64,000 nt of DNA from Pelagibacteraceae bacterium AG-404-P08 (lineage in GTDB: Bacteria > Pseudomonadota > Alphaproteobacteria > HIMB59): contig QCJF01000002.1 of NCBI GenBank assembly GCA_003216195.1, positions 1 to 64,000 on the forward strand. Direction: 5' to 3'. Shown in pieces: positions 29,654-44,694 of the stretch. The translations under genes and the position numbers were made by a program. The notes below the pieces were generated by a model, which saw only the letters and a list, made by a program, of their open reading frames with translations, was not told the DNA's origin and did not search any database. Positions within the stretch are counted from its first letter, which is position 1, and each line of letters opens with the position of its first letter.

Positions 29654-29673
29654 TTTCCCTAAGTCTCCTTATT

Positions 29674-29683
29674 TAGATCGTAC
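29674..29683 (-). promoter_or_regulatory. Recurrent GTAMGATCTA element upstream of the DapA-family gene
   Basis: On the minus strand the site is GTACGATCTA, 20 nt before the start codon of the DapA-family gene. Its plus-strand 11-mer TTAGATCGTAC is identical to that upstream of the alpha-galactoside binding protein. Its presence inside the cluster suggests an internal promoter or operator between the FAD oxidase gene and this gene. Confidence 0.35.
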
Positions 29684-29711
29684 AATGTATCATAGTTGGA
29701 AATCATTTCTT

Positions 29712-31049
29712 TTATAAATCCCTTCCAGCAGTCATTTCTCGAGACTTAATTCTTAAATTGGCACCTATTTGTGTTAAAAAATTAGTTGGCAAAAGACTAG
29801 GTTTTTCAATATTTTCATACTTATCAAGCTGAGATGAATTTGATTTACAAGCCTTATCAATAATAAATTTTCCAGCTAAAGTTCCTTTGACAGTTCCTAG
29901 ACCATTAGAGCAACATGCTGAGAAAAGATTTTCGTCTAACTCACCAAAAGCAGGTGCGCCGTTTAAAGAAAGACAAACCCGTCCTCCCCAGCTAAATTCA
30001 AAAGGTATGTCATGTAAATTAGGAAATCGCTCTATAAAACTCTTACGGTGTTTTTTACATGAATTTTCGAAATCAGAATTAAGCGATACAAGATTTTGAC
30101 GACATCTCCAAGTATTCCTAATAAGAAGTCTGGATTGTTTTTCACTAACCTTAATTTTTCTAACAGTAGTTCCAATTGGATTTGAGGATGTCAAACCCCA
30201 TGAAGGATCACCTTTTAAAATACTATTGTCAAATTTTCTACTAAGAGAGGAATAAGTAAAAATATGTATAAGTTGATTTTTGTAGAAACCAAAATTAGTT
30301 ATGTGACCATTAACTGCAAAAATAATATTTTTAGTTATAATTTTTCCATTAGAAGTTCGCGCTTCCCAAGTATTACGTTTTTTTTCAATTTTTTTAATTG
30401 GGCTATTTTGGAAAACTTTGATTTTATCACTAAGTCTTTCAACAATCCTTTTTATATATTCTGCAGGCTGAATTAAAATTGTTCCAGGAGTATAAATTCC
30501 TTGCTCATAATAGTTAGATCCTGTGATATCAGATAATTGTTTAGAATCCAAAGACTCATAGTCCTCTCCTAGCGCCTCTAACTGTTTCTTGTAGTCTTTA
30601 TTAAATGAAATACCTTTTGGTGTTGCTGCACCATTCAGCTTACCTATTTTATTGTATACATTTTGTGGAATATCATACTCCTCAACCATTTGAGAAGAAA
30701 ATTCGATAGCTTCTCTATGAAGAGAAATTGTGTCCTTGTCTTTTTTAATAGAACTCAAATAATCACCTTTTGCATTTATGTTATGAGGAACATCAATCAT
30801 GAAACCACTATTTTGACCGGCTGCACCTTCACCAATACCAATAGCATCTATAAGAATTATCTTGTCACCACTTCGCAGTTCAGTGAGCCTTTTTGCTGCA
30901 GATATTCCTGCAAAGCCACTGCCTATTACAAGCCAGTCACAGATGATATCTCGATCAAGAAAAGGAGCGCTATATTGGCTATTACTTATTTTTAACCAGC
31001 CATTTTGACCTATTTCTGAGGGAAATCTGTTAGATGAGTAAGCTGTCAA
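29712..31049 (-). CDS. FAD-dependent amine/D-amino-acid oxidase family protein (PuuB/DAO-like)
   Basis: A 445-aa flavoprotein of the D-amino-acid oxidase superfamily. The FAD motif is VIGSGFAGISAAKRL (about residues 41-55) with an acidic strand end (LIDAIGIGEGAAGQNSG), where the GAAGQNSG region matches PuuB-like enzymes. The C-terminal SNGLGTVKGTLAGK closes the FAD site. It oxidises a C-N bond to an imine. In this cluster, candidate substrates are cis-4-hydroxy-D-proline, an N-methyl amino acid or a gamma-glutamyl amine. It is 17 nt downstream of the BHMT-like gene and precedes the DapA-family lyase. Confidence 0.85.
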   Translation of the reverse strand: MTAYSSNRFPSEIGQNGWLKISNSQYSAPFLDRDIICDWLVIGSGFAGISAAKRLTELRSGDKIILIDAIGIGEGAAGQNSGFMIDVPHNINAKGDYLSSIKKDKDTISLHREAIEFSSQMVEEYDIPQNVYNKIGKLNGAATPKGISFNKDYKKQLEALGEDYESLDSKQLSDITGSNYYEQGIYTPGTILIQPAEYIKRIVERLSDKIKVFQNSPIKKIEKKRNTWEARTSNGKIITKNIIFAVNGHITNFGFYKNQLIHIFTYSSLSRKFDNSILKGDPSWGLTSSNPIGTTVRKIKVSEKQSRLLIRNTWRCRQNLVSLNSDFENSCKKHRKSFIERFPNLHDIPFEFSWGGRVCLSLNGAPAFGELDENLFSACCSNGLGTVKGTLAGKFIIDKACKSNSSQLDKYENIEKPSLLPTNFLTQIGANLRIKSREMTAGRDL

Positions 31050-31066
31050 GATAGTCTAAATAGTTT

Positions 31067-32137
31067 TCACCCTTTAGGTAACCACTTTGCTTCAGCTTTG
31101 TATTTATCTTGATGCTTGGTGTTAATGCTACTTAGGGTTTTATCTGTTCCTAAAATAAAATGTTTGCTCATATCGGGGTAGTATTTGTAAGAAATGGGTT
31201 TACGGCCTAATGCAACAGCCATCTCTCTTACATGGTGCGGGGCTGCCCCACAACAGACTCCAATGAAATTAATATTTTTACTTTGGCAGTCTTTAGCAAA
31301 CTCAGCCATCTCATATCTATTACAATAAAGATTATCAATACCAACAGGAAAAGGTCTATTGTCTGGAATACAATTACAACCCTCATCTGGTAAGGAAAAC
31401 CAAACAGGAAATTCATCTGTAGTTCTTACAGGAACTGGTAACCCTGATACATGACAAGATACTTTTTCTCGGATTTTGATTAAGTGCTTCATTGTGTGAT
31501 AAGGTCCTCGAAAACAATTTAAACCAACAACATCTGCGCCATTATCTTCAAATTTTTTACAAGCATCTTCAGGAGTGTCGTCATCCCTAGTTAAATCATT
31601 TGCTGGGATAGCTAAATTTACAACGGCAATTAAACCTGCCTCTTTTATTTTTTTCAGTGCAATCAAAGCCTCACCGGTCCATTGGATTGTTTCAGCTATG
31701 ATAAAATCCACTCCAGCATCCTTAGCCCAACCAATTTGCTCCTCATACATTTTTTCAACTTCAATTAATATACCTTTATCACTCGGATCATATATATTTG
31801 TGTTAGCCACATCTCCAGCTACCATTAAGTCTAATTCTGGAAATTCTGCAGCAGCATTTTTTGCTATTTTAAGGGCATTTGATTGAAGAGGTTCAAGTAA
31901 TTCCTCTTTGCCAATTAATCTGAGTTTTTCACGATGTCCATAATAAGTAAATGCTTGAACAACATCGCTACCTGCTCGAATAAATTCTCGGTGAAGTTGA
32001 GTAACAACTTCTGGGTGTTCTAATACAACTTCAGGGACAAAAGCTCCTGCTTGTAAGTAACCTCTTTTTTCCATTTCAAATAAATAGCCCTCTGCACAAA
32101 GAACTGGGCCCTTATCTAATCTCTGAACTAGATCCAT
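31067..32137 (-). CDS. Betaine/homocysteine S-methyltransferase family protein (BHMT-like)
   Basis: A 356-aa Zn-dependent TIM barrel that transfers a methyl group from a methylated donor to homocysteine. The N-terminal LDKGPVLCAEGYLFEME replaces the usual G-D/A-M-G-T entry. The Zn ligands are Cys in VGLNCFRGP and the CC pair in IGVCCGAAP (about 290-298). A FTYYGHREKL segment matches the betaine:homocysteine branch. It leads the minus-strand cluster with an FAD amine oxidase, DapA-family lyase, ALDH, enolase-superfamily enzyme and Rieske oxygenase. This suggests the first methyl of a betaine substrate is saved as methionine. Start ATG at 32137 has a GGAGG-like site. Confidence 0.88.
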   Translation of the reverse strand: MDLVQRLDKGPVLCAEGYLFEMEKRGYLQAGAFVPEVVLEHPEVVTQLHREFIRAGSDVVQAFTYYGHREKLRLIGKEELLEPLQSNALKIAKNAAAEFPELDLMVAGDVANTNIYDPSDKGILIEVEKMYEEQIGWAKDAGVDFIIAETIQWTGEALIALKKIKEAGLIAVVNLAIPANDLTRDDDTPEDACKKFEDNGADVVGLNCFRGPYHTMKHLIKIREKVSCHVSGLPVPVRTTDEFPVWFSLPDEGCNCIPDNRPFPVGIDNLYCNRYEMAEFAKDCQSKNINFIGVCCGAAPHHVREMAVALGRKPISYKYYPDMSKHFILGTDKTLSSINTKHQDKYKAEAKWLPKG

Positions 32138-32233: not shown

Positions 32234-33346
32234 GTGGGGGCTAAAAAATCAGATTTTTTCGACTCAAGAGACAAATATCTATCCTTTGTAAATTCTACTA
32301 ATGAAAAAAGTAGAATAGCTTTTGAACTAGCTAAATACCTTAAAAAATCAAAAATTACTAAAGATGCTTTCAGAATTTTCGATGCTGGAACAGGAGATGG
32401 CTCAGTTATCTGTACATTGCTATCTGCTGTTCATGACAAATTCCCTGAAGATCCAATTATAGTTGTTGGAAAAGAAATTAGTATTGATGATATTAACAGT
32501 CTTTTAAATTATCTAGGTTATAGATTTTTTGAACATAAGAATTTAGTTTTCTGTATTACGAATGCATCCTACAGAGAAATCAATGATAATAGATTCACAG
32601 ATTGCAAGTTAATTAAAAAAGAATTAGTTGGGAATTCGAGCTTCAGTTTTAATCAGCAACTCATGAATATGGGTGAAGTCATCAGAAAAAACTGGGACAT
32701 AAAAGAAGATACATCTTCAACCATATTGAGACCGAGGCAAAAGACACTGATGGTTATTTATAGAAAGGATCAAAAAATTTCATTAAAGCATTTGATACCA
32801 AGAAAATTAGAGAGTATTCCAAAGTTTTATGACTATATAATTGCATCTCAAGCTTTCAGGCTAAGGTCTCCTTACGACAGAACACTTAAGCTAGTACTTA
32901 TTCCATTATTAAAAATGTTAGATGTAAAAGGTCAGCTATTTTTTATTTATTCATCTGGAAATGATTTTTCAAAAAAGCTTCTCAAATTATTCTTTCCAAA
33001 AATTAATCCCTATCAATTTAGTGATCCTAAAAAATTTGTAGAAAGCCTGAATAAAAAAATACCTCATTTTAGAAAAAAATTTAAAGTGTCCACATCTTCA
33101 TTTTTATTTTCATTTATAAACCTATCATTATCCTCTAAGAAAAAATTTTCACCGATGAACTCTCTTGGATTATGGAATGCTATCACCTATGTTGGTCAAA
33201 TATCCGAAAATGAACAAAAAAGTATAAAAATAAGTATTAATTTCCTTGATAAAATTAGCAATAGTGCAAAAAAACTTAAATTGCAATTTAGTGATCATCT
33301 TTTAAGGTTTGAAAAGAATAATTTTAAAAGTCATTTAGATGAGTAA
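32234..33346 (+). CDS. Putative SAM-dependent methyltransferase of unknown specificity
   Basis: A 370-aa protein I cannot assign to a named family. It has a class I methyltransferase motif I, FDAGTGDGSV (about residues 49-58), followed by a second strand ending VVGKEIS with an acidic residue. A second half follows with LLKMLDVKGQLFFIYSSG, resembling the post-IV strand. The start is GTG at 32234 with AGGAGAGG upstream. Its stop overlaps the DddP start by 8 nt, so the two are translationally coupled. A role in methylating or modifying a DMSP-related compound is possible, but nothing in the sequence shows it. Confidence 0.6.
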   Translation: MGAKKSDFFDSRDKYLSFVNSTNEKSRIAFELAKYLKKSKITKDAFRIFDAGTGDGSVICTLLSAVHDKFPEDPIIVVGKEISIDDINSLLNYLGYRFFEHKNLVFCITNASYREINDNRFTDCKLIKKELVGNSSFSFNQQLMNMGEVIRKNWDIKEDTSSTILRPRQKTLMVIYRKDQKISLKHLIPRKLESIPKFYDYIIASQAFRLRSPYDRTLKLVLIPLLKMLDVKGQLFFIYSSGNDFSKKLLKLFFPKINPYQFSDPKKFVESLNKKIPHFRKKFKVSTSSFLFSFINLSLSSKKKFSPMNSLGLWNAITYVGQISENEQKSIKISINFLDKISNSAKKLKLQFSDHLLRFEKNNFKSHLDE

Positions 33347-34625
33347 TTTTACAAGTAAATTTGCTGACCGTAAAATTGGCCCAAAGTTTTTCGAAACAAT
33401 TAACCAAAATTTTGAAAATCAAGTTTACAAACCTAGACTCTACGAAGAAAAAATAGACTTCGACCGTTTACGTATGTACCGACTCAATAGAGTTTTAGAA
33501 CAACTACGATTAAATAATGTTGGTGCTTGCATATTATTTGATCCGATCAATATAAGGTATGCAACCGACAGTAGAAATATGAGTTTATTTACAATGCATG
33601 AACTTGTGCGATTTGTATTTATTTCTGCAGAGGGAAAAGTAATACTATTTGATTACCCAAAGAGCGAACATCTTTCAGAACATTTATGCACGATTGATGA
33701 GATTCGAGCTGTTGATAGTTGGGATTTTTTTTCAGCAAATAATTTTGTTGATAAAAATGCAAAAAAATGGGCTGGCACCGTTCAAGGTTTAATGAGAGAG
33801 CATTCACCTGATAATAATTGCCTTGCAATAGATGTTTCCGATCCAGTTGGAATACAAATGTTACTTAAACAGTTTAATGTTAAACTAGTGAACGCCCAAA
33901 AGTACATTGAGCTTGCAAGATCTATTAAATCTAATGATGAGTTAATTTGCATGAAAGCTTCTATTGAGACTGCTGAAAAAGGAATGTGGCTAATGAAAGA
34001 TAAACTTCAAGCAGGTATGACAGAAGAGGAACTTTGGTCATACATGCATAAAGTCAATATTGAAAATGGTGGGGAATGGTTTGAGACTCGTCTTTTAGTA
34101 TCTGGACCACGAACAAATCCTTGGCTTCAAGAATGCAGTAACAGAGTTATTGAATCTGGAGATTTAGTTGCTTTTGACACAGATATGGTTGGACCGTACG
34201 GTTACTGTGCTGATATCTCCCGAACCTTTGTTGAGGGCAATCGTCTAAATGATGAACAAAAAAGGCTCTACTCAATGTCTTTAGAGCATATTAATCATAA
34301 CAAATCCCTAATTAAAGCTGGTGTAAATTTTAGAGAATTTGCAGAAAAATCCTGGAAATTGCCTAATAATTGCTACGATAATCATTATCCATGCATCATT
34401 CATGGTGTCGGTCTTTGTGATGAATGGCCACTTGTTGCTTACCCAAATAGAGATTTTAGCAATGCGGATTACTCTGCCAATTTTGAGGAAAATATGACTA
34501 TCTGTGTAGAGAGTTATATTGGTGAAATTGGCGGTAAAGAAGGAATTAAACTTGAGGATCAGTTCGTTGTAACCAAAGATGGCTTGAGGCAACTAAGCTC
34601 ATTTCCTTATGAGATAGATATCTAA
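33339..34625 (+). CDS. dddP: DMSP lyase, DddP family (M24 peptidase fold)
   Basis: Cleaves dimethylsulfoniopropionate to dimethyl sulfide and acrylate. The 428-aa protein has an N-terminal creatinase-like domain with FDPINIRYATDS (68-78) and the signature GGEWFETRLLVSGPRTNPW (244-262). The metal and catalytic residues fit DddP as I recall from Ruegeria: D280, D282, D292, H355, D361, E391 and E406 keep the same spacing as D295, D297, D307, H371, D377, E406 and E421. The HGVGLCDEWPLVAYP motif, with Asp six residues after His, separates it from ordinary M24 peptidases. It overlaps an unknown methyltransferase gene and precedes an SMR-like gene by 1 nt. Confidence 0.9.
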   Translation: MSNFTSKFADRKIGPKFFETINQNFENQVYKPRLYEEKIDFDRLRMYRLNRVLEQLRLNNVGACILFDPINIRYATDSRNMSLFTMHELVRFVFISAEGKVILFDYPKSEHLSEHLCTIDEIRAVDSWDFFSANNFVDKNAKKWAGTVQGLMREHSPDNNCLAIDVSDPVGIQMLLKQFNVKLVNAQKYIELARSIKSNDELICMKASIETAEKGMWLMKDKLQAGMTEEELWSYMHKVNIENGGEWFETRLLVSGPRTNPWLQECSNRVIESGDLVAFDTDMVGPYGYCADISRTFVEGNRLNDEQKRLYSMSLEHINHNKSLIKAGVNFREFAEKSWKLPNNCYDNHYPCIIHGVGLCDEWPLVAYPNRDFSNADYSANFEENMTICVESYIGEIGGKEGIKLEDQFVVTKDGLRQLSSFPYEIDI

Positions 34626-34626
34626 A

Positions 34627-34947
34627 TTGATTGGATATTTTTATTTAGCTGCAGCAGTTTTCTTTGGGATACTTTCAAATAATTTTGCAAAAATATCAAA
34701 TGGATACGAGAAATTCATACCAACTTCACTAAGTGCTATCTCCATAGTAATCGCTGTCTTTTTTATTTCTAAGGTAATGAAGTTTTTGCCAATGGGAATT
34801 GCCTATGCCTCTTATGCTGGTTTAGTGATTTTTGGAACTTTCATATTAAGTATAATTAAGTTTGGTCAGAGTCCAAACTTATTTGGAATACTTGGTTGCG
34901 GGCTAATTATACTTGGTATTGTTATGGTAAACGCTCTAGGTAAATAA
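34627..34947 (+). CDS. SMR/EmrE-like small membrane protein lacking the essential Glu14
   Basis: A 106-aa protein with four hydrophobic helices that aligns without gaps to EmrE over the first 60 residues: Y4, A10, K22 and the GIAYA motif (57-61) are shared. The proton- and drug-binding Glu14 of EmrE is Gly14 here, and Trp63 is Tyr63. It is therefore unlikely to be a classical proton-coupled multidrug exporter. The TTG start lies 1 nt after the DddP stop, so it is probably coupled with it. It may move a DMSP-related or quaternary compound, but this is an inference. It converges with the permease at 34948. Confidence 0.8.
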   Translation: MIGYFYLAAAVFFGILSNNFAKISNGYEKFIPTSLSAISIVIAVFFISKVMKFLPMGIAYASYAGLVIFGTFILSIIKFGQSPNLFGILGCGLIILGIVMVNALGK

Positions 34948-35841
34948 TTACTTCATTCCAGTCATAGTGATACCTTCAACAAATCTTTTTTGAGCAACTA
35001 TGAAAGCCACAATGAGTGGAATGGTAACAGTAACAATCGACGCCATCATGGGTCCAAATTCATCACTATCAATTCCGCCTCTAAATTCTCTTATACCAAG
35101 TGGTGGTGTAAATAAATCACGATTACCTGTGATAACAATCCTAGGCCAAAAATAATCATTCCAGTGAGCAACAACTGAGAAAATTGCAAAAGCTAGTAAC
35201 GCTGGTATAGCTACAGGAAGCATAACTTTCCAAACAATAGAATATTCTCCCATACCATCCATCCTTGCAGCATCAATTAGTTCATCTGGTACTGTCATAA
35301 AAAATTGCCGCATTAGAAAAATTCCAAACACAGATATCGTCCACGGTATTATTAAGGCTGCATAGGTATCCACTAGTCCAGCTTTTGCTAACATGACATA
35401 CAACGGTAAAGCGATTGCATGCACAGGTATTAATAAACAGAACAGAACCATCGAAAAGACAAATTCCCTGCCTTTAAACCTGAGCTTGGCTAGTGCATAA
35501 GAACATGGAAGTGCAATCAATACCTGTATTAAAAAGATTGAAACAGTCACAATCAAACCGTTCATTAAATACCTTGGAATAGGGGCTTTTTTGAATGCAA
35601 ACCAGAAATTGTATTTATAAGGTCGCATTGTACATACTTCTTCGGTATATCCGTGCTTAGTACAAACTGGGAATGTTTGAATCTCCTGTGCTCCGACTAA
35701 ACCTCCAGATATTGACTGAATTTCTTGTTGAGATTTAAGTGACATTGAAACCATCATATAGAATGGGATCAACACAATTAATGCTCCAATGATGAGCAGT
35801 CCATGCTTCCATGACTCTCCAATATAATGTCTAGCTAACAT
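34948..35841 (-). CDS. ABC transporter permease, MalG/UgpE-type (phosphonate cluster)
   Basis: A 297-aa inner-membrane permease. The EAA loop is DAARMDGMGE with VWKVMLPVAIPAL. Between the first helix and the next segment, about residues 38-77, is an extracytoplasmic insertion containing two cysteines (VCTKHGYTEEVC). I chose the ATG at 35841 with an AAAAGGG site upstream; the frame also allows a TTG at 35865 that would overlap the previous gene. It forms a transporter with the MalF-type permease and the ATPase just upstream. The cognate binding protein is probably the one at 40867-42102. Confidence 0.93.
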   Translation of the reverse strand: MLARHYIGESWKHGLLIIGALIVLIPFYMMVSMSLKSQQEIQSISGGLVGAQEIQTFPVCTKHGYTEEVCTMRPYKYNFWFAFKKAPIPRYLMNGLIVTVSIFLIQVLIALPCSYALAKLRFKGREFVFSMVLFCLLIPVHAIALPLYVMLAKAGLVDTYAALIIPWTISVFGIFLMRQFFMTVPDELIDAARMDGMGEYSIVWKVMLPVAIPALLAFAIFSVVAHWNDYFWPRIVITGNRDLFTPPLGIREFRGGIDSDEFGPMMASIVTVTIPLIVAFIVAQKRFVEGITMTGMK

Positions 35842-35842
35842 T

Positions 35843-36799
35843 TTAGTAATGTACCCTTTTCTCAATCACATATCTTTGGAAGAATGTTAGCAAGATTATA
35901 AAAATTATAAACACAACAGTAATCGCTGCACCAATACTTGTAATATTTTGTTGAATTGCTTTTTCAAAAATTGCATACATCATTACATATGTTGTTTTGG
36001 CAGGACCGCCTTTTGTAAGAATTTCAATTGTGTCAAATACTTGAAATGACCTTATTGTCGTGATGGTAACCACAAAAAGAGTTGTAGGACCTAACATTGG
36101 CCAAGTTACAAGTTTAAATTGTTCCCAAGTTGACTGAGCACCATCCATTTCTGCAGCATGATACAATTCTCTTGGTATGCTTGTTAAACCAGCTAAGTAT
36201 AACACCATATTAAATCCAAAGGCTTGCCATACTCCAATAAAACAAATTGTCCAAATCGCTGTTTTTTTATCTTTGAGCCAATACGGGAAATCCATATTGT
36301 TAGCACAAGCAACACTGTACCAACTGTCCTCGGAACTAACCCACGGTAGCCAATGAAAACCTAAAATAAATTCTCTAATACCTCCGCATCCATTGGCAAG
36401 AAAAGAATTTATTATTCCAAGAGTTGGGTGAAGAGTAAATTCCCAAGCAATAGCCATTGCCAATAAAGTAGCCATCACCGGAAGAAAGAAAATTGTTTTA
36501 TAAATATCAGCTCCAAATCGAAGAGAGTTGAGCATAATGGCTGCAACTAAACCTAATACCACTGAAACAGGGACAACGATTAACACGTAAGTTGCCGTTG
36601 ATATAATCATTTTTATGTAGGTTTTTCTGGAGAACATTTTTTCATAATTCTCCATACCTACCCATTCGAAACTAGAATTACCAAGATTGTAATTAGTAAA
36701 AGAGATACCTCCAGCTAAAAAAATTGGAAGTATTAATATGACAATCATTAGTATGATTGCAGGCCAAACAAACCAAATATGTGCTTTAGAGTGGTGCAT
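35843..36799 (-). CDS. ABC transporter permease, MalF/UgpA-type (phosphonate cluster)
   Basis: A 318-aa inner-membrane permease with an N-terminal FVWPAIILMIVILILPIF helix, a WVGMENYEKMF loop and the EAA motif HAAEMDGAQSTWEQFKLV. An extracytoplasmic insertion at about residues 135-177 contains two cysteines (ANGCGG and VACANN), unusual beside the simpler permeases of the alpha-galactoside operon. It lies 2 nt after the ATPase gene and is followed by the MalG-type permease. Genome context ties the transporter to the divergent phnA-phnY-binding-protein genes. Confidence 0.93.
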   Translation of the reverse strand: MHHSKAHIWFVWPAIILMIVILILPIFLAGGISFTNYNLGNSSFEWVGMENYEKMFSRKTYIKMIISTATYVLIVVPVSVVLGLVAAIMLNSLRFGADIYKTIFFLPVMATLLAMAIAWEFTLHPTLGIINSFLANGCGGIREFILGFHWLPWVSSEDSWYSVACANNMDFPYWLKDKKTAIWTICFIGVWQAFGFNMVLYLAGLTSIPRELYHAAEMDGAQSTWEQFKLVTWPMLGPTTLFVVTITTIRSFQVFDTIEILTKGGPAKTTYVMMYAIFEKAIQQNITSIGAAITVVFIIFIILLTFFQRYVIEKRVHY

Positions 36800-36801
36800 A
36801 C

Positions 36802-37920
36802 TTATCTAACACGCTCACCAGATGTTTCAAAAAGCATAGCCTCTGAATGAGAGGGGCTTATTTTAACTGTTTCCCCATTTGAAATCAGTCCAGCTTGTGG
36901 TGAGCCTCTGACTATGATCTTAGAGTCAGATTGATCAACTTGAACATGGTAAAATATATCAGAACCAAGGTTTTCTCTGTATGAAACTGTAGCCTCAAAT
37001 ACAGGTTTGTTTGGGTCTTTTGTAATTTCTAAATGTTCTGGTCTCACAGCAACTAAAGCTTTTTGACTATTAGTTTTAAATTTTCTTTCAAGCTTAATAC
37101 CCATAAATTCAACAGAACCATCAGAGATAATTTGAGCAGCAAATGTGTTAATCTTTGGGCTGCCAACAAATTCTGCAACCTTTAAAGATGATGGATTATT
37201 ATAAACCTCACTTGGAGTATCAAGTTGCAAAAGTTCCCCATCAATCATTACCGCCATTCGAGTTGACATTGTAAGTGCTTCAGCTTGATCATGAGTCACA
37301 TAAATGAAAGTGGTCTTTAAAGAATTATGAAGCTCAGATAGTTCAGATCTCATATGAACTCTTAGTGCAGCATCAAGATTTGATAAAGGTTCATCCATTA
37401 AGAACGCTACTGGTTCTCTTACCATCGCTCTTCCTAGCGCCGCTCTTTGTCTTTGACCTCCAGATAGTTGACCTGGCTTCCTATCAAGTAGTTCTGTTAT
37501 TTTTAAAGTTTCAGATGTTTTGAAAACAAGGTCATCAATTGATTTCTTTTTTTCTTTTCTACTTGGTACAAAATTACCAATAAGAGGCAACCTCTCTACA
37601 AAACTATAGTCTCTTAATTTCAAAGGTGTTTCTAGATTTTTTCTGACAGTCAGGTGTGGGTAAAGAGCGTAAGATTGGAAAACCATTGCTAAGTCTCTCT
37701 TGCTAGCTCTAGTGCTGTTAACATTCTTATCATCAATAATTACATCGCCACTATTTTGTTGTTCCAATCCGGCAATAATTTTTAACAAAGTGGATTTGCC
37801 GCAACCGGACGGACCGACTAATGTTAAAAATTCACCATCTTGGATATCAAGGCTTAGCTGTTTAAGCACCTCAGTTGAGCCAAATGACTTATTGATGTTC
37901 TTTAAAGAAATTGTCCCCAT
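36802..37920 (-). CDS. ABC transporter ATP-binding protein, MalK/UgpC family (phosphonate cluster)
   Basis: A 372-aa ATPase with Walker [10 protein letters not shown] (36-44), a Q-loop in FQSYALYPH (81-89), LSGGQRQR (152-159), Walker [13 protein letters not shown] (172-183), an H-loop VTHDQAEA, and a TOBE C-terminus (VRPEHLEI). An insertion of about 23 residues (104-126, containing PLIGNFVPSRKEKKK) lies in the helical domain; I recall similar inserts in one UgpC subgroup. It is the first gene of the minus-strand transporter operon and is divergent from phnA across a 136-nt region that holds a candidate operator. Confidence 0.94.
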   Translation of the reverse strand: MGTISLKNINKSFGSTEVLKQLSLDIQDGEFLTLVGPSGCGKSTLLKIIAGLEQQNSGDVIIDDKNVNSTRASKRDLAMVFQSYALYPHLTVRKNLETPLKLRDYSFVERLPLIGNFVPSRKEKKKSIDDLVFKTSETLKITELLDRKPGQLSGGQRQRAALGRAMVREPVAFLMDEPLSNLDAALRVHMRSELSELHNSLKTTFIYVTHDQAEALTMSTRMAVMIDGELLQLDTPSEVYNNPSSLKVAEFVGSPKINTFAAQIISDGSVEFMGIKLERKFKTNSQKALVAVRPEHLEITKDPNKPVFEATVSYRENLGSDIFYHVQVDQSDSKIIVRGSPQAGLISNGETVKISPSHSEAMLFETSGERVR

Positions 37921-37976
37921 CTATTTTTATTCCTCAACACTAAAATAGTTCTGATTAAGACATTTTAAAAGTAAAT

Positions 37977-38005
37977 TTGTAAAATTTATGTTAAAACTTT
38001 ATGAA
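37977..38005 (+). promoter_or_regulatory. Candidate promoter for phnA
   Basis: TTGTAA at 37977-37982 and TATGAA at 38000-38005 are 17 nt apart, in the divergent gap before phnA. The -10 overlaps the start of the inverted repeat at 38003-38034. Both hexamers are imperfect and the region is very AT-rich, so the call is tentative. Confidence 0.35.
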
Positions 38006-38034
38006 CAAATTTTAGATTAATCGAAAGTTTGTTC
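38003..38034. promoter_or_regulatory. Inverted repeat, candidate operator between transporter and phnA
   Basis: Perfect 7-bp arms GAACAAA (38003-38009) and TTTGTTC (38028-38034) are separated by 18 nt, just upstream of the phnA start in the divergent intergenic region. The spacing would suit a dimeric repressor or activator. No regulator gene is adjacent and I do not see a convincing Pho box. Confidence 0.4.
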
Positions 38035-38056
38035 TTTATTGAGGGCAATAGTAATT

Positions 38057-39292
38057 ATGATTGATAAAATTGAAATAAACAAAAGACAATACAATAAATC
38101 ACTCTCTTCAACTGTAGTAGTTATATGCCTTGATGGTAGTCAAAAAGAGTATATTGATATCGCCTCTTCAAAAGGATTGACACCAAATCTTGATAAAATA
38201 CTGGAAAATGGCCAATATCTGATGGCTAACAGTGCTATTCCCAGTTTTACAAACCCTAACAACATTTCGATAGTCACAGGTCAGCCTAGTGATGTTCATG
38301 GAATAAGTGGTAATTTCTTTTATACCCCATCAACTGGTGAAGAAGTGATGATGAATGATCCACAGTATTTAAGAGCTCCAACTATTTTTGAGAAATATTA
38401 TAATGAAGGTTATAAAATAGCAGTAATCACTGCAAAGGACAAATTAAGAACTCTTTTAGGTAATGGTTTAAGATTTAATGAAGGAAGAGCAATCTGTTTT
38501 TCATCAGAAAAATCAGATCAGGCCACTCTCAGTGAAAATGGTATTGAGAATATTAATGAATGGATTGGAATGAAAGTACCTGAAGTATATTCTCAAGATC
38601 TATCAGAATTTGTTATGGCAGCTGGGGTAAAATTACTTGAGGAATTTAATCCTGACATTATGTATTTATCTACAACTGACTTTATTCAACACAAATATGC
38701 ACCTGGAGATAAAGAAGCAAATGATTTTTATCAGATGTTTGATAGGTATGTCAGTAAAATTTGTAGTAATGGGAATTCGGTTGTCATCACTGCAGATCAT
38801 GGAATGAAGTCTAAAGCAAATATTAATGGAGAACCTAATGCCATCTTCCTTCAAGATTATTTAGATGATCAAATGGGTAAAGATGAGGCTAAAGTAATAC
38901 TTCCAATTACTGATCCTTATGTAGTTCATCATGGTTCACTGGGATCGTTTGCCACTATATATGTAAAAGATAAATCAAAAATTGATGAAACAATTAGCAA
39001 AATATCATCAATTAAAGAAATTGAAGTAGTTGTTAAACAAGAAGAAGCATGCAGAGAATATAGGCTACCTTCAGATAGAATAGGTGATATCGTATGCATG
39101 TCATCTGAAGATATGACAATTGGTACCTCAAAAGCTAATCATGATCTTTCAAAATTAAAGGAGCCCCTTAGATCTCATGGAGGTCATCATGAAAGAGAAG
39201 TTCCCTTTATTTCTAATAAAAAACTAAACATTGCCAAAGATCAAAGTTTAAATAACTATGATGCATTTTTTTATGCTATTAATGGAGCATAA
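38057..39292 (+). CDS. phnA: Phosphonoacetate hydrolase
   Basis: Hydrolyses the C-P bond of phosphonoacetate to acetate and phosphate. The 411-aa alkaline phosphatase-superfamily protein keeps every catalytic and Zn residue that I recall from Sinorhizobium PhnA with a constant offset of three: D26, T65 (nucleophile), D208, H212, D247, H248 and H374 match D29, T68, D211, H215, D250, H251 and H377. I chose the ATG at 38057 because it matches the family N-terminus and has a GAGGG site; the frame can start at a TTG at 38039. It is 2 nt before phnY, so the pair forms an operon. Confidence 0.93.
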
Positions 39293-39294
39293 TC

Positions 39295-40734
39295 ATGACT
39301 GATAAAATAATTAATGAGGGTATGAGGATTGGTGGAAAAACTGTTCACACCGATAACAAGATTGATGTTATCTATCCCTTCACAGGTAAAGTTATAGGCA
39401 CAGTACCAGCTGGCACAGCAGAACATGCTCAAAATGCCTTTGATATTGCTGCAAATTATAAACCTAATTTATCTAGATATGATCGTCAAAAAATACTTCA
39501 AAAGACTGCTGAAACACTTGTTGAGAGAAAAGAACAAATCTCTGATCTAATTTCACTTGAGTCCGGGCTATCGAAACAAGATACGCTTTATGAAGTTGGT
39601 AGGGCCTTTGATGTATTTTCTCTTACTGCTCAGCTTTGTATCCAGGATGATGGAGAAATTTATTCTTGTGATTTAACACCTCATGGAAAGCAAAGAAAAA
39701 TATTTACAATTAGAGAACCGCTTAACACAATATCTGCAATCACTCCATTTAATCATCCTTTAAATATGGTTGCTCACAAAATAGCTCCATCAATAGCAAC
39801 TAACAACTGTACTGTTTGTAAACAAACTGAATTGACCCCTTTAACAGCTATGCTGCTAGCAGATATTTTATATGAATGTGGCCTTCCTCCAGAAATGTTT
39901 TCAATTTTAACAGGATGGCCTGAAGACATTGGGAATGAAGTAATTAAAAATAAAAATATAGATTTAATTACTTTTACAGGAAGCGTTGGTGTTGGAAAAC
40001 TAATAGCTGAAAATGCAGGTTACAAAAGAACTGTTTTAGAGTTAGGTGGAAACGACCCTTTAATAGTTTTGAGTGACTTAGATGATGATGATTTAAATAA
40101 AGCAGCTGATCTAGCAATCATGGGAGCAACAAAAAACTCTGGTCAAAGATGCACTGCTGTAAAAAGAATATTAGTTCAAGAATCAGTAGCTGATAAATTT
40201 GTTGAGCTTGCTTTGGAAAAAGCAAAAGCAATAAAATTTGGTGATCCCATGGATGTTAACAATCAGTTGGGTACAGTAATTAATAAAGAGGCAGCAAGTA
40301 TGTTTAATGACAGAGTAAATAAAGCTGAACAGGATGGTGCAAAAATTCTTTATAACCCTGGGGTCCAAGAAGCTCTTGTGCCACCAATTTTTATAGACAA
40401 CGTTAATTATAAATCAGAACTTGTTGTTGAAGAAACCTTTGGTCCAATTGTGCCTGTCATTAGAGTTCCCAATGATGATGAAAAAGTAATGGAAATTTCA
40501 AATTCAACGGCGTTTGGTTTGTCATCAGGTGTTTGTAGTAACGATTTTAGAAGAATTAAAAAATACATAAGCGGTCTTAATGTGGGCACGGTTAATATTT
40601 GGGAAGTGCCCGGTTACAGAATTGAGATGTCACCTTTTGGCGGAATAAAAGACTCAGGATTAGGCTATAAAGAGGGTGTAATAGAGGCTATGAAAAGTTA
40701 CACAAATGTAAAAACCTTCTCATTACCTTGGTAA
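39295..40734 (+). CDS. phnY: Phosphonoacetaldehyde dehydrogenase
   Basis: Oxidises phosphonoacetaldehyde to phosphonoacetate with NAD+. The 479-aa ALDH has the general base Glu in LELGGNDP (E249), the catalytic Cys in [11 protein letters not shown] (C286) and a FTGSVGVG cofactor loop. Its length is close to that of Sinorhizobium PhnY (about 485 aa). The identity rests mostly on its 2-nt linkage to phnA, because ALDHs are hard to separate by motif. Phosphonoacetaldehyde is normally supplied by the transaminase PhnW from 2-aminoethylphosphonate, but no phnW is in this window. The iron alcohol dehydrogenase at 43259 is an alternative source. Confidence 0.88.
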
Positions 40735-40866
40735 TTAATAGCGTTTAAGAATTATTCACAGATTTTTTCTCTAACATACTGATTATTTCTACTTTGCTTT
40801 AAAAATTTAACATATTCTTAATATTAAGGATTTAATAATTAATTATTATTATTTTAAGGAGGGACT

Positions 40867-42102
40867 ATGAAAAAAGTAATCTTAGGATTTTTTGCATCAG
40901 TTTTCGCATACAACGCTAATGCGGTAGAAATTGAATTTGCATATCCTTATTCAGGTTTGTTCGATGTGACATACCAGGCAATTATGCCAGAGTTTGAAAA
41001 AGCTCATCCTGACATTAAAGTTAAGTTCAGAGCAACTTATGAAAACTATGAAGATGCTACTGCTACTATACTAAGAGAGTCAACATCAGGAAACTTACCT
41101 GATATCACCATGCAAGGTCTTAATAGACAAGCACCTTTAGTAGACAAAGGTATCGCTTTATCTTTAGAGCCTTTCATTGCTAATGAGCCAGATTTTGCAA
41201 AAGACGGTTATCATGAAGCTATGTTGAGCTTATCTACCTTCGGAGGAGAGGTTTATGGCTTACCATTTTCAGTATCAACTCCGGTTGGTTACTACAACAT
41301 GGATCTTTTAGCAAGTGCTGGTGTTAGCAGCATTCCATCAAATTGGGATGAGGTCATTGACGCTTGTAATAAATTAGAAGCTGCAGGACACGGTACACTT
41401 TACTTTGGATGGAATATTACAGGTAACTGGTTCCATCAAGCTCTAATGCATAGCCAAAATGTTCCAATGGTTAAAGATGGAGCTGTTAATATGGGAGGAG
41501 ATGCTGGTCTAAAAACTTTAGAGCAAATGAAAGATATCATGGGTGGCTGTAACATGCCTAACTATTCTATTGCTGACGGACAAGCTGCGTTTAACGCAGG
41601 TACTATTGGTATGATGTTTTGGAGTACAAGTAGTTTAGGCTCTGTTGAAGCTGCAAAAGCTGACTTTGAACTAAAGACTGCGCCTTTTCCAGGAATACCT
41701 GGTGTTAATGGTGGAACTCCAGCTAGACTACCTGCCGGTGGTAACGCAGCGATGTTAGTTACTACTTCAGATGATCCTGAAAGAGTACAAGCGGCATGGA
41801 CATTTTTAAAGTTTATCACATCAGGTGTAGGAGCAGCTGCTGTTGCAGAAACAACAGGTTACGTTCCTCCTAACAAAGCTGCAAATGACCTGTTAGGTGA
41901 TTTTTATGATGCAAACCCCAACAAGTTAACTGCTGTTAATCAGCTGCCTTTGTTAGCTGATTGGTTCGCATATCCTGGAGAAAACGGTCTTGCTGTGACT
42001 CAGGTAATCTATGACTATACTGAGACCATTGCTACAGGTGATGCCGACGACATGGCCGATCTTCAGGAAGAAATGATGGAGGAAATTGAAGACTTAATGT
42101 AG
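40867..42102 (+). CDS. ABC transporter periplasmic binding protein, UgpB-like (phosphonate cluster)
   Basis: A 411-aa solute-binding protein with a signal peptide covering about residues 1-19 (MKKVILGFF ending in NANAVE). The mature part resembles UgpB-type CUT1 proteins: FEKAHPDIKVKF, ESTSGNLPDITMQG and YGLPFSVSTPVGYYN. The C-terminus is strongly acidic. It has a strong AAGGAGGG ribosome site (about 40856-40863). It follows phnY by 132 nt and is the likely partner of the divergent permeases and ATPase at 34948-37920. The UgpB family binds glycerol-3-phosphate or sugars, so a phosphonate ester or glycan is plausible; this is an inference. A strong terminator follows. Confidence 0.92.
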   Translation: MKKVILGFFASVFAYNANAVEIEFAYPYSGLFDVTYQAIMPEFEKAHPDIKVKFRATYENYEDATATILRESTSGNLPDITMQGLNRQAPLVDKGIALSLEPFIANEPDFAKDGYHEAMLSLSTFGGEVYGLPFSVSTPVGYYNMDLLASAGVSSIPSNWDEVIDACNKLEAAGHGTLYFGWNITGNWFHQALMHSQNVPMVKDGAVNMGGDAGLKTLEQMKDIMGGCNMPNYSIADGQAAFNAGTIGMMFWSTSSLGSVEAAKADFELKTAPFPGIPGVNGGTPARLPAGGNAAMLVTTSDDPERVQAAWTFLKFITSGVGAAAVAETTGYVPPNKAANDLLGDFYDANPNKLTAVNQLPLLADWFAYPGENGLAVTQVIYDYTETIATGDADDMADLQEEMMEEIEDLM

Positions 42103-42135
42103 GTCTTTTCAATTCCGTTTATCATTAGATTTTTA

Positions 42136-42168
42136 AACAGCAGCTATTATACTAGCTGCTGTTTTTTT
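42136..42168 (+). terminator. Rho-independent terminator abutting the next start codon
   Basis: A perfect 11-bp stem (AACAGCAGCTA at 42136-42146 and TAGCTGCTGTT at 42153-42163) with a 6-nt loop is followed by a T run to 42168. It lies 34 nt after the binding-protein stop. The ATG of the MetE-like gene begins at 42171, only 2 nt past the T run, so the terminator also sits where the ribosome site for that gene should be. Confidence 0.88.
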
Positions 42169-42170
42169 AA

Positions 42171-43253
42171 ATGAGCATCAAAACTACAACCATTGGAGCT
42201 TATCCAAAACCTAATTACACACCTATAAGAGATTGGTTTCTCCAAGATAAATCTGATGAAGAAAAAAAACAATCCAAGGGATTGTTGTCTAATTGGGATC
42301 CCAAAAGTGATGACCATAAAGTATATGAAGAGAAAGATGACGAAAAAGAAAAACTATTCTTAAAAGCCACTGAAGAGGTAATTCTTGATCAAACAAGTAG
42401 CGGAATAGATATCCCCACAGATGGTGAAGTAAGGCGAGAAAACTATATTTTTTATCAATTGAGATTTTTTAATGGGGTAAGCTTTGAACATTTAACGACT
42501 AAATCAGTCAGGAAAGGAGCTTTTGAAGCAACACTCCCAACAATTACAAGTAAAGTTTCAAATAAATCATTACGATTAGTAGATGATTGGAAATCTGCAC
42601 AGCAGTTTACTAATAACCCAGTGAAAATAACTATACCTGGTCCTATGACAATAACTGACTCCATTGCTGATGACTATTATAATGATCCCAAAAAAATGGG
42701 TTATGATCTAGCTTTATGTATTAGTAATGAAGTTAAGGCTCTATCCGAAGCTGGTTGTCAATACATTCAAATTGATGAACCAGTGTTCGCCAGAAAACCA
42801 GAAGAAACTCACGATTATGGTATGGAAAACTTAGAAAGAGCAATGCATGGAATACTAAAAGAAACTCAAAAAGCTTGTCATATTTGCTGCGGTTATCCTA
42901 ACTCTCTTGACTCAGAACACTACAAAAAAGCAGACCTAGATGCATATGATAAAATTGCTGACTTAGTTGAAGACTCTAGTATAGACGAAGTTTCTTTGGA
43001 AGACTCTCACCGACCTTTAGATTTAAAATTATTAGAAAAATTTAAAAAAACCAAAGTTATTATGGGTTTGATTGATGTAGCTAAAAGTCGTATGGAAAGT
43101 GTCGAGGAAATTCAAAAAAGGATCAGAGAAGTTCTTGAGCATATTGATGAGGAAAGATTAATTGCTGCTCCTGATTGTGGTCTAGGGTTTTTTGATAGAA
43201 ATCAAGCAAAACAAAAAATGCAAATTCTCTCAAAAGCTGTTAAAAATCTCTAA
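42171..43253 (+). CDS. Core-MetE-like cobalamin-independent methyltransferase
   Basis: A 360-aa homologue of the C-terminal catalytic domain of MetE. It starts with TTTIGAYPKP (5-14). Zn ligands appear as His and Cys in CHICCG (H237, C239), an acidic residue in SLED (about E277) and Cys in PDCGLGF (C336). It lacks the N-terminal MetE domain, so the methyl donor need not be methyl-folate. Family members without it can use other donors. It lies between the phosphonate-cluster binding protein and an iron alcohol dehydrogenase, hinting at a methylated phosphonate, but the substrate is unknown. No normal ribosome site precedes the ATG. Confidence 0.82.
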   Translation: MSIKTTTIGAYPKPNYTPIRDWFLQDKSDEEKKQSKGLLSNWDPKSDDHKVYEEKDDEKEKLFLKATEEVILDQTSSGIDIPTDGEVRRENYIFYQLRFFNGVSFEHLTTKSVRKGAFEATLPTITSKVSNKSLRLVDDWKSAQQFTNNPVKITIPGPMTITDSIADDYYNDPKKMGYDLALCISNEVKALSEAGCQYIQIDEPVFARKPEETHDYGMENLERAMHGILKETQKACHICCGYPNSLDSEHYKKADLDAYDKIADLVEDSSIDEVSLEDSHRPLDLKLLEKFKKTKVIMGLIDVAKSRMESVEEIQKRIREVLEHIDEERLIAAPDCGLGFFDRNQAKQKMQILSKAVKNL

Positions 43254-43258
43254 ATCTT

Positions 43259-44371
43259 ATGTGGGAATATTATAATCCGGTAAATGTTATTTTTGGTTCG
43301 GAAAAATTTAGTGAAATTGAACATATAATAAGTAATCGAAAGTACATTCTTGTTACCCATCCTGATGATAACTTTGATACGTACAGAGAGTTTTTTAACA
43401 ATTTATCAAATAAGCCTCTAGAAATCTTTGATGATGTTCAACCAAATCCAGACTATCAAGATTTAATTTCTGCAGGGGAAAAATTTTCAAAAATAGAAAG
43501 TCAAATTGATACAGTTGTTGCTCTTGGAGGCGGCTCTGTCATGGATACGGCCAAATTACTTGCAGCTTTTAAAGGTGAAAATAAATATTTAAATGATTTT
43601 GTAAGAAATAAAAAATCAGCTTACGTTCAAGATCCAAAAAAAATTATAGCTATACCTACTACTTCGGGCACATCGAGTGAACTTACGTGTTGGGCTACAG
43701 TCTGGGATAAAGAATATAAAAGTAAATTTTCATTAGCAGATAAATCTTTATATCCTGAAATATCAGTTATTGACCCTAAGTTAATGATCAACAAGCCAAA
43801 AAATCTGACTATTTCTACTGGTCTTGATGCATTGTCCCACTCCTTAGAAAGCATTTGGAATGTAAACTCAAATCCGATTTCAACATTTCATGGAATTGCA
43901 GGTGCTCAAACCGTGATCGATACACTTCCAAAACTTGTAAATGATTTAAAAAACATAGAGTTGAGAACTTTAATGGCTAAAGCTTGTGTTCATGCAGGTC
44001 TAGCTTTTTCAAATACTAAAACTGCAATAGCACATAATATTTCATACCCGATAACAATTAATTTTAATGTTCCACATGGAATAGCTTGTTCTTTTACTTT
44101 GCCGACAATAATGAGGAGTCTGATTGGCCAAGATGAAAAAACAGAAAAATCCCTAGAAAAAATTTATAATGTCGATCTCATTGAGAGTTCAAAAAGACTA
44201 TCTGAGACATTGAGAATTCTTGAAGCACCATTAAATTTAAATGAAATTGGAATACCAAAAATTGAATGGGATAAATATGTTGAGGATGCTTTTCAAGGTG
44301 AAAGGGGAAAAAATTTCATTGGAAATAAAATCTCATTTGATAAAGCGTGTTCTGAGATGAATTTCTTCTAA
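43259..44371 (+). CDS. Iron-containing alcohol dehydrogenase, phosphonate-associated type
   Basis: A 370-aa group III alcohol dehydrogenase. It has the NAD motif GGGSVMDTAK (90-99), TTSGTSSELT (134-143), and metal ligands D190 and H194 in STGLDALSHS and H259 in TAIAHNIS. H273 is in VPHGIAC; the fourth usual ligand position, ten residues on, is T283 instead of His. The SELTCWATVWD stretch resembles the phosphonate-linked branch that interconverts phosphonoacetaldehyde and 2-hydroxyethylphosphonate. Beside phnA and phnY, oxidation of hydroxyethylphosphonate to phosphonoacetaldehyde is a coherent but unproven role. It starts 5 nt after the MetE-like gene and ends overlapping trxA by 4 nt. Confidence 0.88.
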   Translation: MWEYYNPVNVIFGSEKFSEIEHIISNRKYILVTHPDDNFDTYREFFNNLSNKPLEIFDDVQPNPDYQDLISAGEKFSKIESQIDTVVALGGGSVMDTAKLLAAFKGENKYLNDFVRNKKSAYVQDPKKIIAIPTTSGTSSELTCWATVWDKEYKSKFSLADKSLYPEISVIDPKLMINKPKNLTISTGLDALSHSLESIWNVNSNPISTFHGIAGAQTVIDTLPKLVNDLKNIELRTLMAKACVHAGLAFSNTKTAIAHNISYPITINFNVPHGIACSFTLPTIMRSLIGQDEKTEKSLEKIYNVDLIESSKRLSETLRILEAPLNLNEIGIPKIEWDKYVEDAFQGERGKNFIGNKISFDKACSEMNFF

Positions 44372-44694
44372 AGTTTACTGTTAATCCAACTTCTTAAGTC
44401 CGCTTCTGAGCCTAAGCCAATCTTTGCATCAGCCATTGATCCATCTTTAAAGAGTATCATTGTGGGTATACTCCTGATACTAAAGTTTGCTGGTGCTTGA
44501 GGATTTTCATCTATATTAATTTTTTTTATAGATATCTTATCGCCCATTTCAGAGGCTAAATTATCCAAAATAGGAGCAATAGCCTTACATGGACCACACC
44601 ACTCAGCCCAAAAATCTACCAAAACAGGCTTATCTTTTGATCCTTCAAGAACTTTTTGATTAAATTCATCGTCATTTATTTGTTCAACTGTCAT
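44368..44694 (-). CDS. trxA: Thioredoxin
   Basis: A 108-aa thioredoxin, a general cytosolic disulfide reductant. The active site is WAEWCGPCKAIAP (about residues 28-40), with the cis-Pro in IRSIPTMILF. Length and motif are standard. It is the last gene of a minus-strand group with murU and amgK. In many alphaproteobacteria addA and addB lie between murU and trxA; here they are absent and the gap is 19 nt. It converges with the iron alcohol dehydrogenase with a 4-nt overlap. Confidence 0.95.
   Translation of the reverse strand: MTVEQINDDEFNQKVLEGSKDKPVLVDFWAEWCGPCKAIAPILDNLASEMGDKISIKKINIDENPQAPANFSIRSIPTMILFKDGSMADAKIGLGSEADLRSWINSKL

Follow-up and report, generated by a model that had tools for sequence, protein, structure and literature searches.

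The hydrolytic PhnW–PhnY–PhnA pathway for 2-aminoethylphosphonate (AEP) ends with PhnY and PhnA, whose reactions are established for their families. Here we describe a cassette of related design in a stretch of 64,000 nucleotides (hereafter the window; contig QCJF01000002.1, positions 1 to 64,000) from Pelagibacteraceae bacterium AG-404-P08, of the marine alphaproteobacterial order HIMB59 (AEGEAN-169). Its phnA and phnY orthologues score over the curated cut-offs and would catalyse the same last two reactions. It differs from the known pathway in that PhnW is missing, an iron alcohol dehydrogenase (Fe-ADH) occupies the phosphonoacetaldehyde-forming place and the importer is of the CUT1 type, not PhnSTUV, AepXVW or PhnCDE. 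We propose, with a probability of about 0.7, that this is a self-contained, PhnW-free cassette that mineralises 2-hydroxyethylphosphonate (HEP), probably taken up as an ester.

Other described systems share parts of this design. HEP is used by carbon–phosphorus (C–P) lyase with release of ethylene (PMC5649143); the proposed substrate is the same, but C–P lyase cleaves the bond directly, whereas the cassette would carry out two oxidations and a hydrolysis to yield acetate and phosphate. The Fe-ADH class cd08182 is described as ‘hydroxyethylphosphonate dehydrogenase or phosphonoacetaldehyde reductase’, with phpC and fomC as biosynthetic examples (PMC5125639). The cassette Fe-ADH belongs to the same superfamily and would catalyse the same reaction pair, cd08182 being compared by its description only. 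The members treated in PMC5125639 act in the biosynthesis of phosphinothricin and fosfomycin, whereas the cassette is proposed to be catabolic, to run in the opposite direction and to do so without pepM. The reaction class of the enzyme is already known, and its proposed catabolic use is what would be new; among the matches listed from the open-licence PMC literature, we came across no account of an Fe-ADH that acts as a HEP dehydrogenase in catabolism. N-methyl-AEP is converted to phosphonoacetaldehyde by PbfC and PbfD (PMC10590968). Like the proposed Fe-ADH step, the Pbf entry enzymes (PbfA, PbfC, PbfD and PbfF) are ancillary activities that feed phosphonoacetaldehyde to PhnX or PhnYA, but their substrates are hydroxylated or N-methylated aminophosphonates, whereas the Fe-ADH would take HEP and belongs to an unrelated enzyme family.

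A cassette proposed to mineralise HEP

In the proposed route, the CUT1 importer and a UgpB-like binding protein would import a phosphonate, probably an HEP ester, from which free HEP would be released before the dehydrogenase step. Fe-ADH would oxidise HEP to phosphonoacetaldehyde with NAD(P)+, PhnY would convert this to phosphonoacetate, and PhnA would split phosphonoacetate into acetate and phosphate, without ethylene. Comparison with related genomes gives good support to the core of the proposal, in which Fe-ADH would draw on HEP to feed PhnY and PhnA. Such comparison also points to the direction of the Fe-ADH step, and more weakly to a phosphorus ester as the cargo.

Every gene named in an earlier reading of the bare sequence (the original prediction) was found at its given coordinates in the list of open reading frames (ORFs) of the window (Table 1). 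The scores of PhnA against TIGR02335 (486.9 bits; cut-off, 407.55) and of PhnY against TIGR03250 (759.9 bits; cut-off, 635.65) exceed the curated thresholds. The solved structures nearest to PhnA are the phosphonoacetate hydrolases 3szy, 3t02 and 1ei6. Its catalytic residues had been said to lie at a constant offset, and all seven metal and nucleophile residues, which we take to be D29, T68, D211, H215, D250, H251 and H377, do match 3szy at one offset.

We compared 162 genomes of the host order from two families: 52 from a single genus that includes the window genome (the host genus) and 110 from a sister family. The binding-protein, MetE-like and Fe-ADH genes are adjacent in 27 of 30 loci, the window locus counted among them. 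Co-occurrence across genomes, which the original prediction had proposed to look for, is widespread: Fe-ADH and the CUT1 binding protein are found together in 85 of the 162 genomes (10 have only Fe-ADH, 3 only the binding protein and 64 neither; not corrected for ancestry). Within the host genus, 19 genomes have both, one has only Fe-ADH, one has only the binding protein and 31 have neither. Because of this adjacency and co-occurrence, the grouping is not a matter of chance. The genes are closely spaced, with 2 bases between phnA and phnY and 5 between the MetE-like gene and Fe-ADH, with 132 bases before and 68 after the binding-protein gene.

The source of phosphonoacetaldehyde

PhnW (TIGR02326) was detected at E ≤ 1e-60 in none of the 52 genomes of the host genus, which are not complete (the thresholds of 90% completeness and 5% contamination are passed by 10 of them), and in 92 of the 110 sister-family genomes, 91 of these over the curated cut-off. 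In the host genome itself (1.24 Mb, 27 contigs), no protein exceeds the PhnW cut-off; a weak PhnW-like transaminase match reaches 102.6 bits (cut-off, 400.8), and weak matches of this type, none over the cut-off, occur in all 14 control genomes. The absence of phnW first noted at the locus therefore holds for the genus, in which we found no phnW elsewhere that could be co-regulated with phnA and phnY. PepM (TIGR02320) occurs in one of the 162 genomes, a host-genus member without this Fe-ADH (G112), and in none of the 95 Fe-ADH carriers. With neither a PhnW nor a PepM route found in the host genus (the genome-wide search covered these two and not PbfA or PbfD), Fe-ADH is likely to be the source of phosphonoacetaldehyde, and oxidation would be its only sensible direction.

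Half of the host-genus genomes (26 of 52) carry phnA, 19 of them together with Fe-ADH. In two others (G137 and G146), the contigs end inside the same cassette, and the remaining five (G111, G115, G117, G119 and G127) carry a divergent phnA–phnY pair. One genome (G158) has Fe-ADH without phnA, on a contig of 3.9 kb. In the five genomes with the other phnA (L064–L068), the gene 3′ of phnY has 374–378 codons. At L064 it encodes a TIGR03364 FAD oxidoreductase (338.5 bits; cut-off, 285.1), a family that we equate with PbfD, and the locus also holds an AEP-type binding protein, PhnS2, over its cut-off. The other four loci encode proteins that are 87–92% identical to this FAD oxidoreductase and 81–97% identical to this PhnS2 protein. 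Fe-ADH, the CUT1 binding protein and the MetE-like enzyme have no match in any of the five stretches. Entry enzyme and importer have thus been exchanged together while phnA–phnY was kept, as expected if Fe-ADH is the entry enzyme.

The sister family shows how the cassette divides. Fe-ADH is present in 75 of its 110 genomes, 66 of which also have the binding protein. Among the other nine, the five loci that we read (L044, L048, L049, L050 and L051) have phnA–phnY–FeADH without this CUT1 importer, the binding protein or the MetE-like gene, and in a sixth case (G054) the coordinates leave space between phnA and Fe-ADH for phnY only. In G035, G040 and G058, Fe-ADH is close enough to a contig end to place the binding-protein gene beyond the contig. 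Because loci without the importer keep phnA–phnY–FeADH, these three genes form a core, and the importer, binding protein and MetE-like gene form a second module.

Fe-ADH and its relatives in other bacteria

The family closest to Fe-ADH is TIGR03405 (PsrA), matched with 384.7 bits over profile positions 1–354 of 355; the name PsrA combined with phosphonate terms was not found among the matches listed from the open-licence PMC literature. The residues that we presume to be metal ligands (D190, H194, H259 and H273) do not vary among the 16 aligned sequences, and a GGGS nucleotide motif is present. A tree of 44 Fe-ADHs places the window protein with those of the sister family (support, 100/100), followed by L141 (99/97); the deepest split has little support (46/95), and the protein from G112 forms a very long branch whose position could not be resolved.

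A class-wide search with TIGR03405 gave matches in 12 of 385 genomes, two from the window genus, and a scan of named genomes gave at least 587 Fe-ADH relatives, of which 80 were kept. We examined 22 loci: the ten class-wide matches outside the order, the top eleven named-genome relatives, including two from the sister family (L144 and L145), and L181, picked because phnX was seen there. The stretches span 5.8 to 19.9 kb, and phnW may lie elsewhere in those genomes. Genes of the phnC/D/E type are present in 12 of the 22 (L134–L138, L141, L146–L149, L152 and L153), phnA in 4 (L135, L141, L145 and L149) and phnX in 3 (L150, Acinetobacter; L153, Pantoea; L181, Bacillus). Two loci (L142 and L154) have pepM with genes that we label aepY-like, and phnW is found only in L145, a sister-family locus. 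For the 20 loci outside the order, the counts are 12 with phnC/D/E, 3 with phnA, 3 with phnX, 2 with pepM and none with phnW. At L141, an aldehyde dehydrogenase is encoded between phnA and Fe-ADH; its score of 256 bits (cut-off, 635.65) does not qualify it as PhnY. A single gene run at L140 (4649–10797) combines a UgpB-like importer, an Fe-ADH of the TIGR03405 type and an SpdA/GpdQ-like phosphodiesterase. The binding protein encoded there retains E and R at the glycerol positions, and we consider the run a candidate operon for the utilisation of glycero-HEP.

The original prediction placed Fe-ADH at the phosphonoacetaldehyde-forming step. This placement gains from the lack of phnW in the host genus and of pepM in Fe-ADH carriers, from the exchange in five relatives and from the phnA or phnX partners, often with phnC/D/E, in unrelated bacteria; it fits less well in the sister family, in which phnW is common (see below).

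The importer and its cargo

The two permeases and the ATPase resemble UgpE, UgpA and UgpC. In Phaeobacter UgpB, the P–O group is bound by a quartet of Tyr (Y64 and Y342) and Ser (S143 and S266) residues, and E88 and R393 hold the glycerol hydroxyls; proteins that bind glycerophosphocholine or dinucleotides share the P–O quartet, whereas those that bind glucose do not (PMC12718374). For a profile of 13 binding proteins related to that of the cassette, UgpB structures are the best solved relatives. In an alignment at about 20% identity, in which single positions could be off, the counterparts of the quartet (Table 1) and of UgpB G303 and W188 are present in all 13 sequences, whereas E88 and R393 align to G84 and T378 in all 13. 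That the four phosphate contacts are kept and the two glycerol contacts are not favours a phosphorus ester over a sugar. An AlphaFold2 model of the binding protein (mean pLDDT, 85.9) has as its best Foldseek match Mycobacterium tuberculosis UgpB with glycerophosphocholine, and the top ten also include Escherichia coli UgpB, Phaeobacter UgpB and a dinucleotide-binding protein. The cassette importer shares with UgpBAEC the CUT1 architecture, the P–O quartet and the fold, but differs in the two replaced glycerol contacts, in its identity of about 20% to solved UgpB and in that no subunit exceeds the NCBIfam cut-offs for UgpBAEC.

A search of 357 genomes gave binding-protein relatives in 21 outside the order. 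We read nine of these loci (L267–L275), leaving out two better-scoring genomes of an already sampled genus. In eight of the nine, the operon runs ATPase–permease–permease–binding protein–phosphodiesterase, with an SpdA/GpdQ-like enzyme at its end; the other locus (L270) is a 5.7-kb contig with no phosphodiesterase visible. The presence of a phosphodiesterase in the importer operons of relatives argues for a phosphate or phosphonate ester as the cargo. The nearest solved relatives of the sister-family phosphodiesterase are Rv0805 and 2dxl/2zo9, the latter of which we take to be GpdQ. In the host genus, a sample of 37 genomes gave a phosphodiesterase relative in 6, all of them among the 14 with Fe-ADH; the 23 without Fe-ADH gave none (not corrected for ancestry). 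Together, these data moderately support an importer that carries a phosphorus ester. Of the sugar- or glycerol-linked phosphonate ester that had been predicted as cargo, the ester part gains from the quartet and the phosphodiesterase operons, whereas the glycerol link does not follow, two of the UgpB glycerol contacts being replaced.

The MetE-like enzyme

The MetE-like enzyme lacks the folate-binding N-terminal domain and falls below all NCBIfam MetE cut-offs. Its presumed zinc ligands (H237, C239, E277 and C336) are invariant in 14 of 14 MetE-like sequences, which also keep the acids presumed to form the homocysteine site. Outside the cassette, we read eight loci with relatives (L276–L283), of which L278 is from a sister-family genome without the cassette. 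A phnS2-type AEP importer adjoins the relative at L277 (G470). At L278 (G079), a PehA-like hydrolase (410.9 bits; cut-off, 900) lies on the same strand at 7 bases. The relatives at L282 (G239) and L283 (G353) stand beside genes that score over their cut-offs, for TmpA (2-trimethylaminoethylphosphonate dioxygenase) and carnitine dehydrogenase, respectively. No clear phosphonate partner is near the relatives at L276, L279, L280 and L281. The cassette enzyme may plausibly remove a methyl group from the substrate or product, and the clade of core MetE proteins is possibly one of demethylases or betaine-linked methyltransferases. The full sequence for an esterified and possibly methylated HEP, in which CUT1 uptake and MetE-like alkyl transfer to homocysteine would precede Fe-ADH, PhnY and PhnA, is unlikely to hold in every step.

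Weighing the alternatives

Several observations weigh against the HEP reading. The Fe-ADH score is under the TIGR03405 cut-off of 423.7 bits, three of the 22 neighbourhoods (L139, L143 and L151) show none of the enzyme markers, and identity to the window Fe-ADH does not sort the contexts (35% for L181, beside phnX; 38% for L154, beside pepM). The host genome is 82% complete. In the sister family, 68 of 75 genomes with Fe-ADH also carry phnW, and 12 of the 16 loci read have it inside the stretch, so the locus there probably serves AEP as well, and its Fe-ADH might be auxiliary or run the other way. For the cargo, the replaced glycerol contacts count against the proposal, as does UgpB W191, which falls in an insertion and has no counterpart; two sugar-binding proteins are among the Foldseek top ten with similar scores, close behind UgpB. 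The cassette holds no phosphodiesterase, the host-genus phosphodiesterase stretches that we read (L290–L292) have no phosphonate gene alongside, and the sister-family phosphodiesterase, found at 13 of 16 Fe-ADH loci, is also found at 4 of 8 phnA loci without Fe-ADH.

The same Fe-ADH could work in reverse. In 2-AEP operons, phpC has been read as making HEP from AEP (PMC9381506, 2022), and a PhpC-type reductase in the cassette would likewise turn phosphonoacetaldehyde into HEP for cell-surface decoration, as that study has it for phpC. Such a role would suit the Fe-ADH relatives beside pepM and aepY-like genes at L142 (33% identity), L154 (38%, partial) and, in the host genus, L224 (34%), as well as the phnW that accompanies the operon in the sister family. 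However, the host genus has no known source of phosphonoacetaldehyde for a reductase to draw on, and six loci outside the order have Fe-ADH beside phnA or phnX with no pepM or phnW in the stretch; we regard this direction as very unlikely. Only slightly less remote is a cassette for AEP or N-methylated AEP, in which phosphonoacetaldehyde would come from a distant transaminase or FAD oxidase and Fe-ADH would be otherwise employed. TIGR03364-family FAD oxidoreductases do hold this place in relatives of the same genus, and the host genome has its weak PhnW-like match. However, weak matches of that type are present in all the control genomes, the FAD oxidoreductase cluster brings its own AEP-type importer and comes without Fe-ADH, and the DAO gene upstream in the window does not adjoin the cassette in L069, L070, L080 and L081.

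It is possible, although on balance doubtful, that the importer and MetE-like gene constitute a module of their own, which would serve a glycerophosphodiester (glycerophosphocholine, for example) or its methyl groups and would adjoin an independent HEP module of phnA–phnY–FeADH. The pathways of carnitine dehydrogenase and TmpA yield betaine, and two MetE relatives adjoin one or the other of these genes. The joint absence of importer, binding protein and MetE-like gene from five sister-family loci that keep phnA–phnY–FeADH is consistent with two modules, as are the relatives of the binding protein that occur with a phosphodiesterase and, in the stretches read, without phnA, phnW or Fe-ADH. Against this, the MetE-like and binding-protein genes are placed between phnY and Fe-ADH on one strand, the MetE-like gene 5 bases from Fe-ADH, and the binding protein and Fe-ADH are together in 85 and apart in 13 of the 162 genomes, again without correction for ancestry. 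A single cassette for HEP remains our preferred reading.

Relation to published surveys

In 2024, 30% of ‘Candidatus Nemonibacter’, which we infer to be the host genus, were reported to have a ‘partial 2-AEP degradation pathway’ of phnY and phnA only (PMC11366302); this is probably the cassette described here. If so, the HEP reading would explain why the last two steps of a phosphonate pathway are kept without the usual first enzyme, in this ‘partial’ pathway and elsewhere. Phosphonate islands of HIMB59 have been located through phnC, phnD and phnE and hold C–P lyase (PMC10734472), a search that would miss this cassette. In a streamlined oligotroph, an oxidative–hydrolytic route would amount to a second sink. 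Marine high-molecular-weight organic matter holds phosphonate esters of the kind that esterified HEP represents, and if the esterified or methylated form is the substrate, ocean HEP would be mineralised without ethylene. Metagenomic Fe-ADH genes counted as phpC may include catabolic ones, perhaps many, so estimates of phosphonate production may be inflated.

Layout, loss and neighbouring genes

Table 1. Features of the cassette and its edge in the window
Position	Strand	Feature	Evidence
34627..34947	+	SMR-type small membrane protein at the cassette/importer edge, possibly dispensable	ORF
34948..35865	-	CUT1 permease, UgpE-like	NF008210, 128 bits (cut-off, 297); PF00528
35843..36799	-	CUT1 permease, UgpA-like	NF007852, 101 bits (cut-off, 335)
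36802..37920	-	ABC ATPase, UgpC/MalK-like, with TOBE domain	NF008653, 379.5 bits (cut-off, 432); PF08402
37921..38038		Divergent intergenic region between importer and phnA, 118 bases	
38039..39292	+	phnA, phosphonoacetate hydrolase	TIGR02335 over cut-off; residues kept
39295..40734	+	phnY, phosphonoacetaldehyde dehydrogenase	TIGR03250 over cut-off
40867..42102	+	UgpB-like solute-binding protein with P–O-binding Tyr/Ser quartet (Y58, S137, S253, Y332)	Profile, alignment, structure comparison
42135..42164	+	Terminator-like hairpin, 12 pairs, 3′ of the binding-protein gene	Weak
42171..43253	+	Core-MetE-like zinc thiol-alkyltransferase without folate domain	PF01717
43259..44371	+	Phosphonate-type Fe-ADH, proposed HEP dehydrogenase	TIGR03405, alignment, neighbourhoods

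A DddP-like M24 gene (33339–34625) and a thioredoxin gene (44368–44694) border the block. An SMR ORF of at least 80 codons was not called in L037, L069, L070, L080 and L225, and its DNA is visible in L037 and L070. Terminator-like hairpins are weak evidence here, with 5 in the region compared with 3.8 (s.d. 1.5) in shuffled sequences. The Pho-box consensus has 4 matches in the window (5.7 expected), none of them in the region between the importer and phnA, and a promoter scan gave 23 sites compared with 28.5 in shuffles. No phnGHIJKLM gene (C–P lyase) is among the 20 window proteins scanned, the genome itself not having been searched for C–P lyase.

In four cassette-free genomes (G125, G135, G153 and G161; L126–L129), the M24 and thioredoxin genes are neighbours, and the spacer between them still carries some 50 bases from the 3′ end of Fe-ADH (window positions ~44317–44368), within right-flank alignments of 105–124 bases at 80–83% identity. 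This scar points to deletion, and we rejected a simple insertion of the cassette into an empty site; the four lineages have most likely lost it. The comparison covers L126–L129, with four other sites (L130–L133) outside it.

The dapA-like, DAO and BHMT genes upstream (28688–32137) were considered as cassette members and rejected: they do not adjoin the cassette at L069, L070, L080 and L081 and occur without it at L131 and L132. As a block, the dapA-like, DAO and homocysteine methyltransferase genes are found in some relatives and missing in others (loci concerned: L071, L131 and L132). Carriage of the cassette by phages found no support; viral contigs gave 7 pattern matches to the binding protein, none confirmed, and the five records shown of 16 from a phage collection are 26.8–27.7% identical.

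A methyltransferase-like gene of 370 codons and no named family lies near the cassette (32234–33346). A relative (33–40% identity) stands directly 3′ of Fe-ADH in the sister family (L043, 7482–8588), where the copy has a Methyltransf_31 match below the cut-off. Also in the sister family, some phn loci have, near the Fe-ADH operon, a further ABC importer and a gene resembling a double-domain glycerophosphodiester phosphodiesterase (L044, 535–6538; L082 and L083); at L044 this gene scores below the curated cut-off. Within the host genus, G112 carries pepM, an aepY-like gene and a PhpC-like Fe-ADH (L224, 4017–7429), and would be a rare phosphonate producer in a lineage of consumers.

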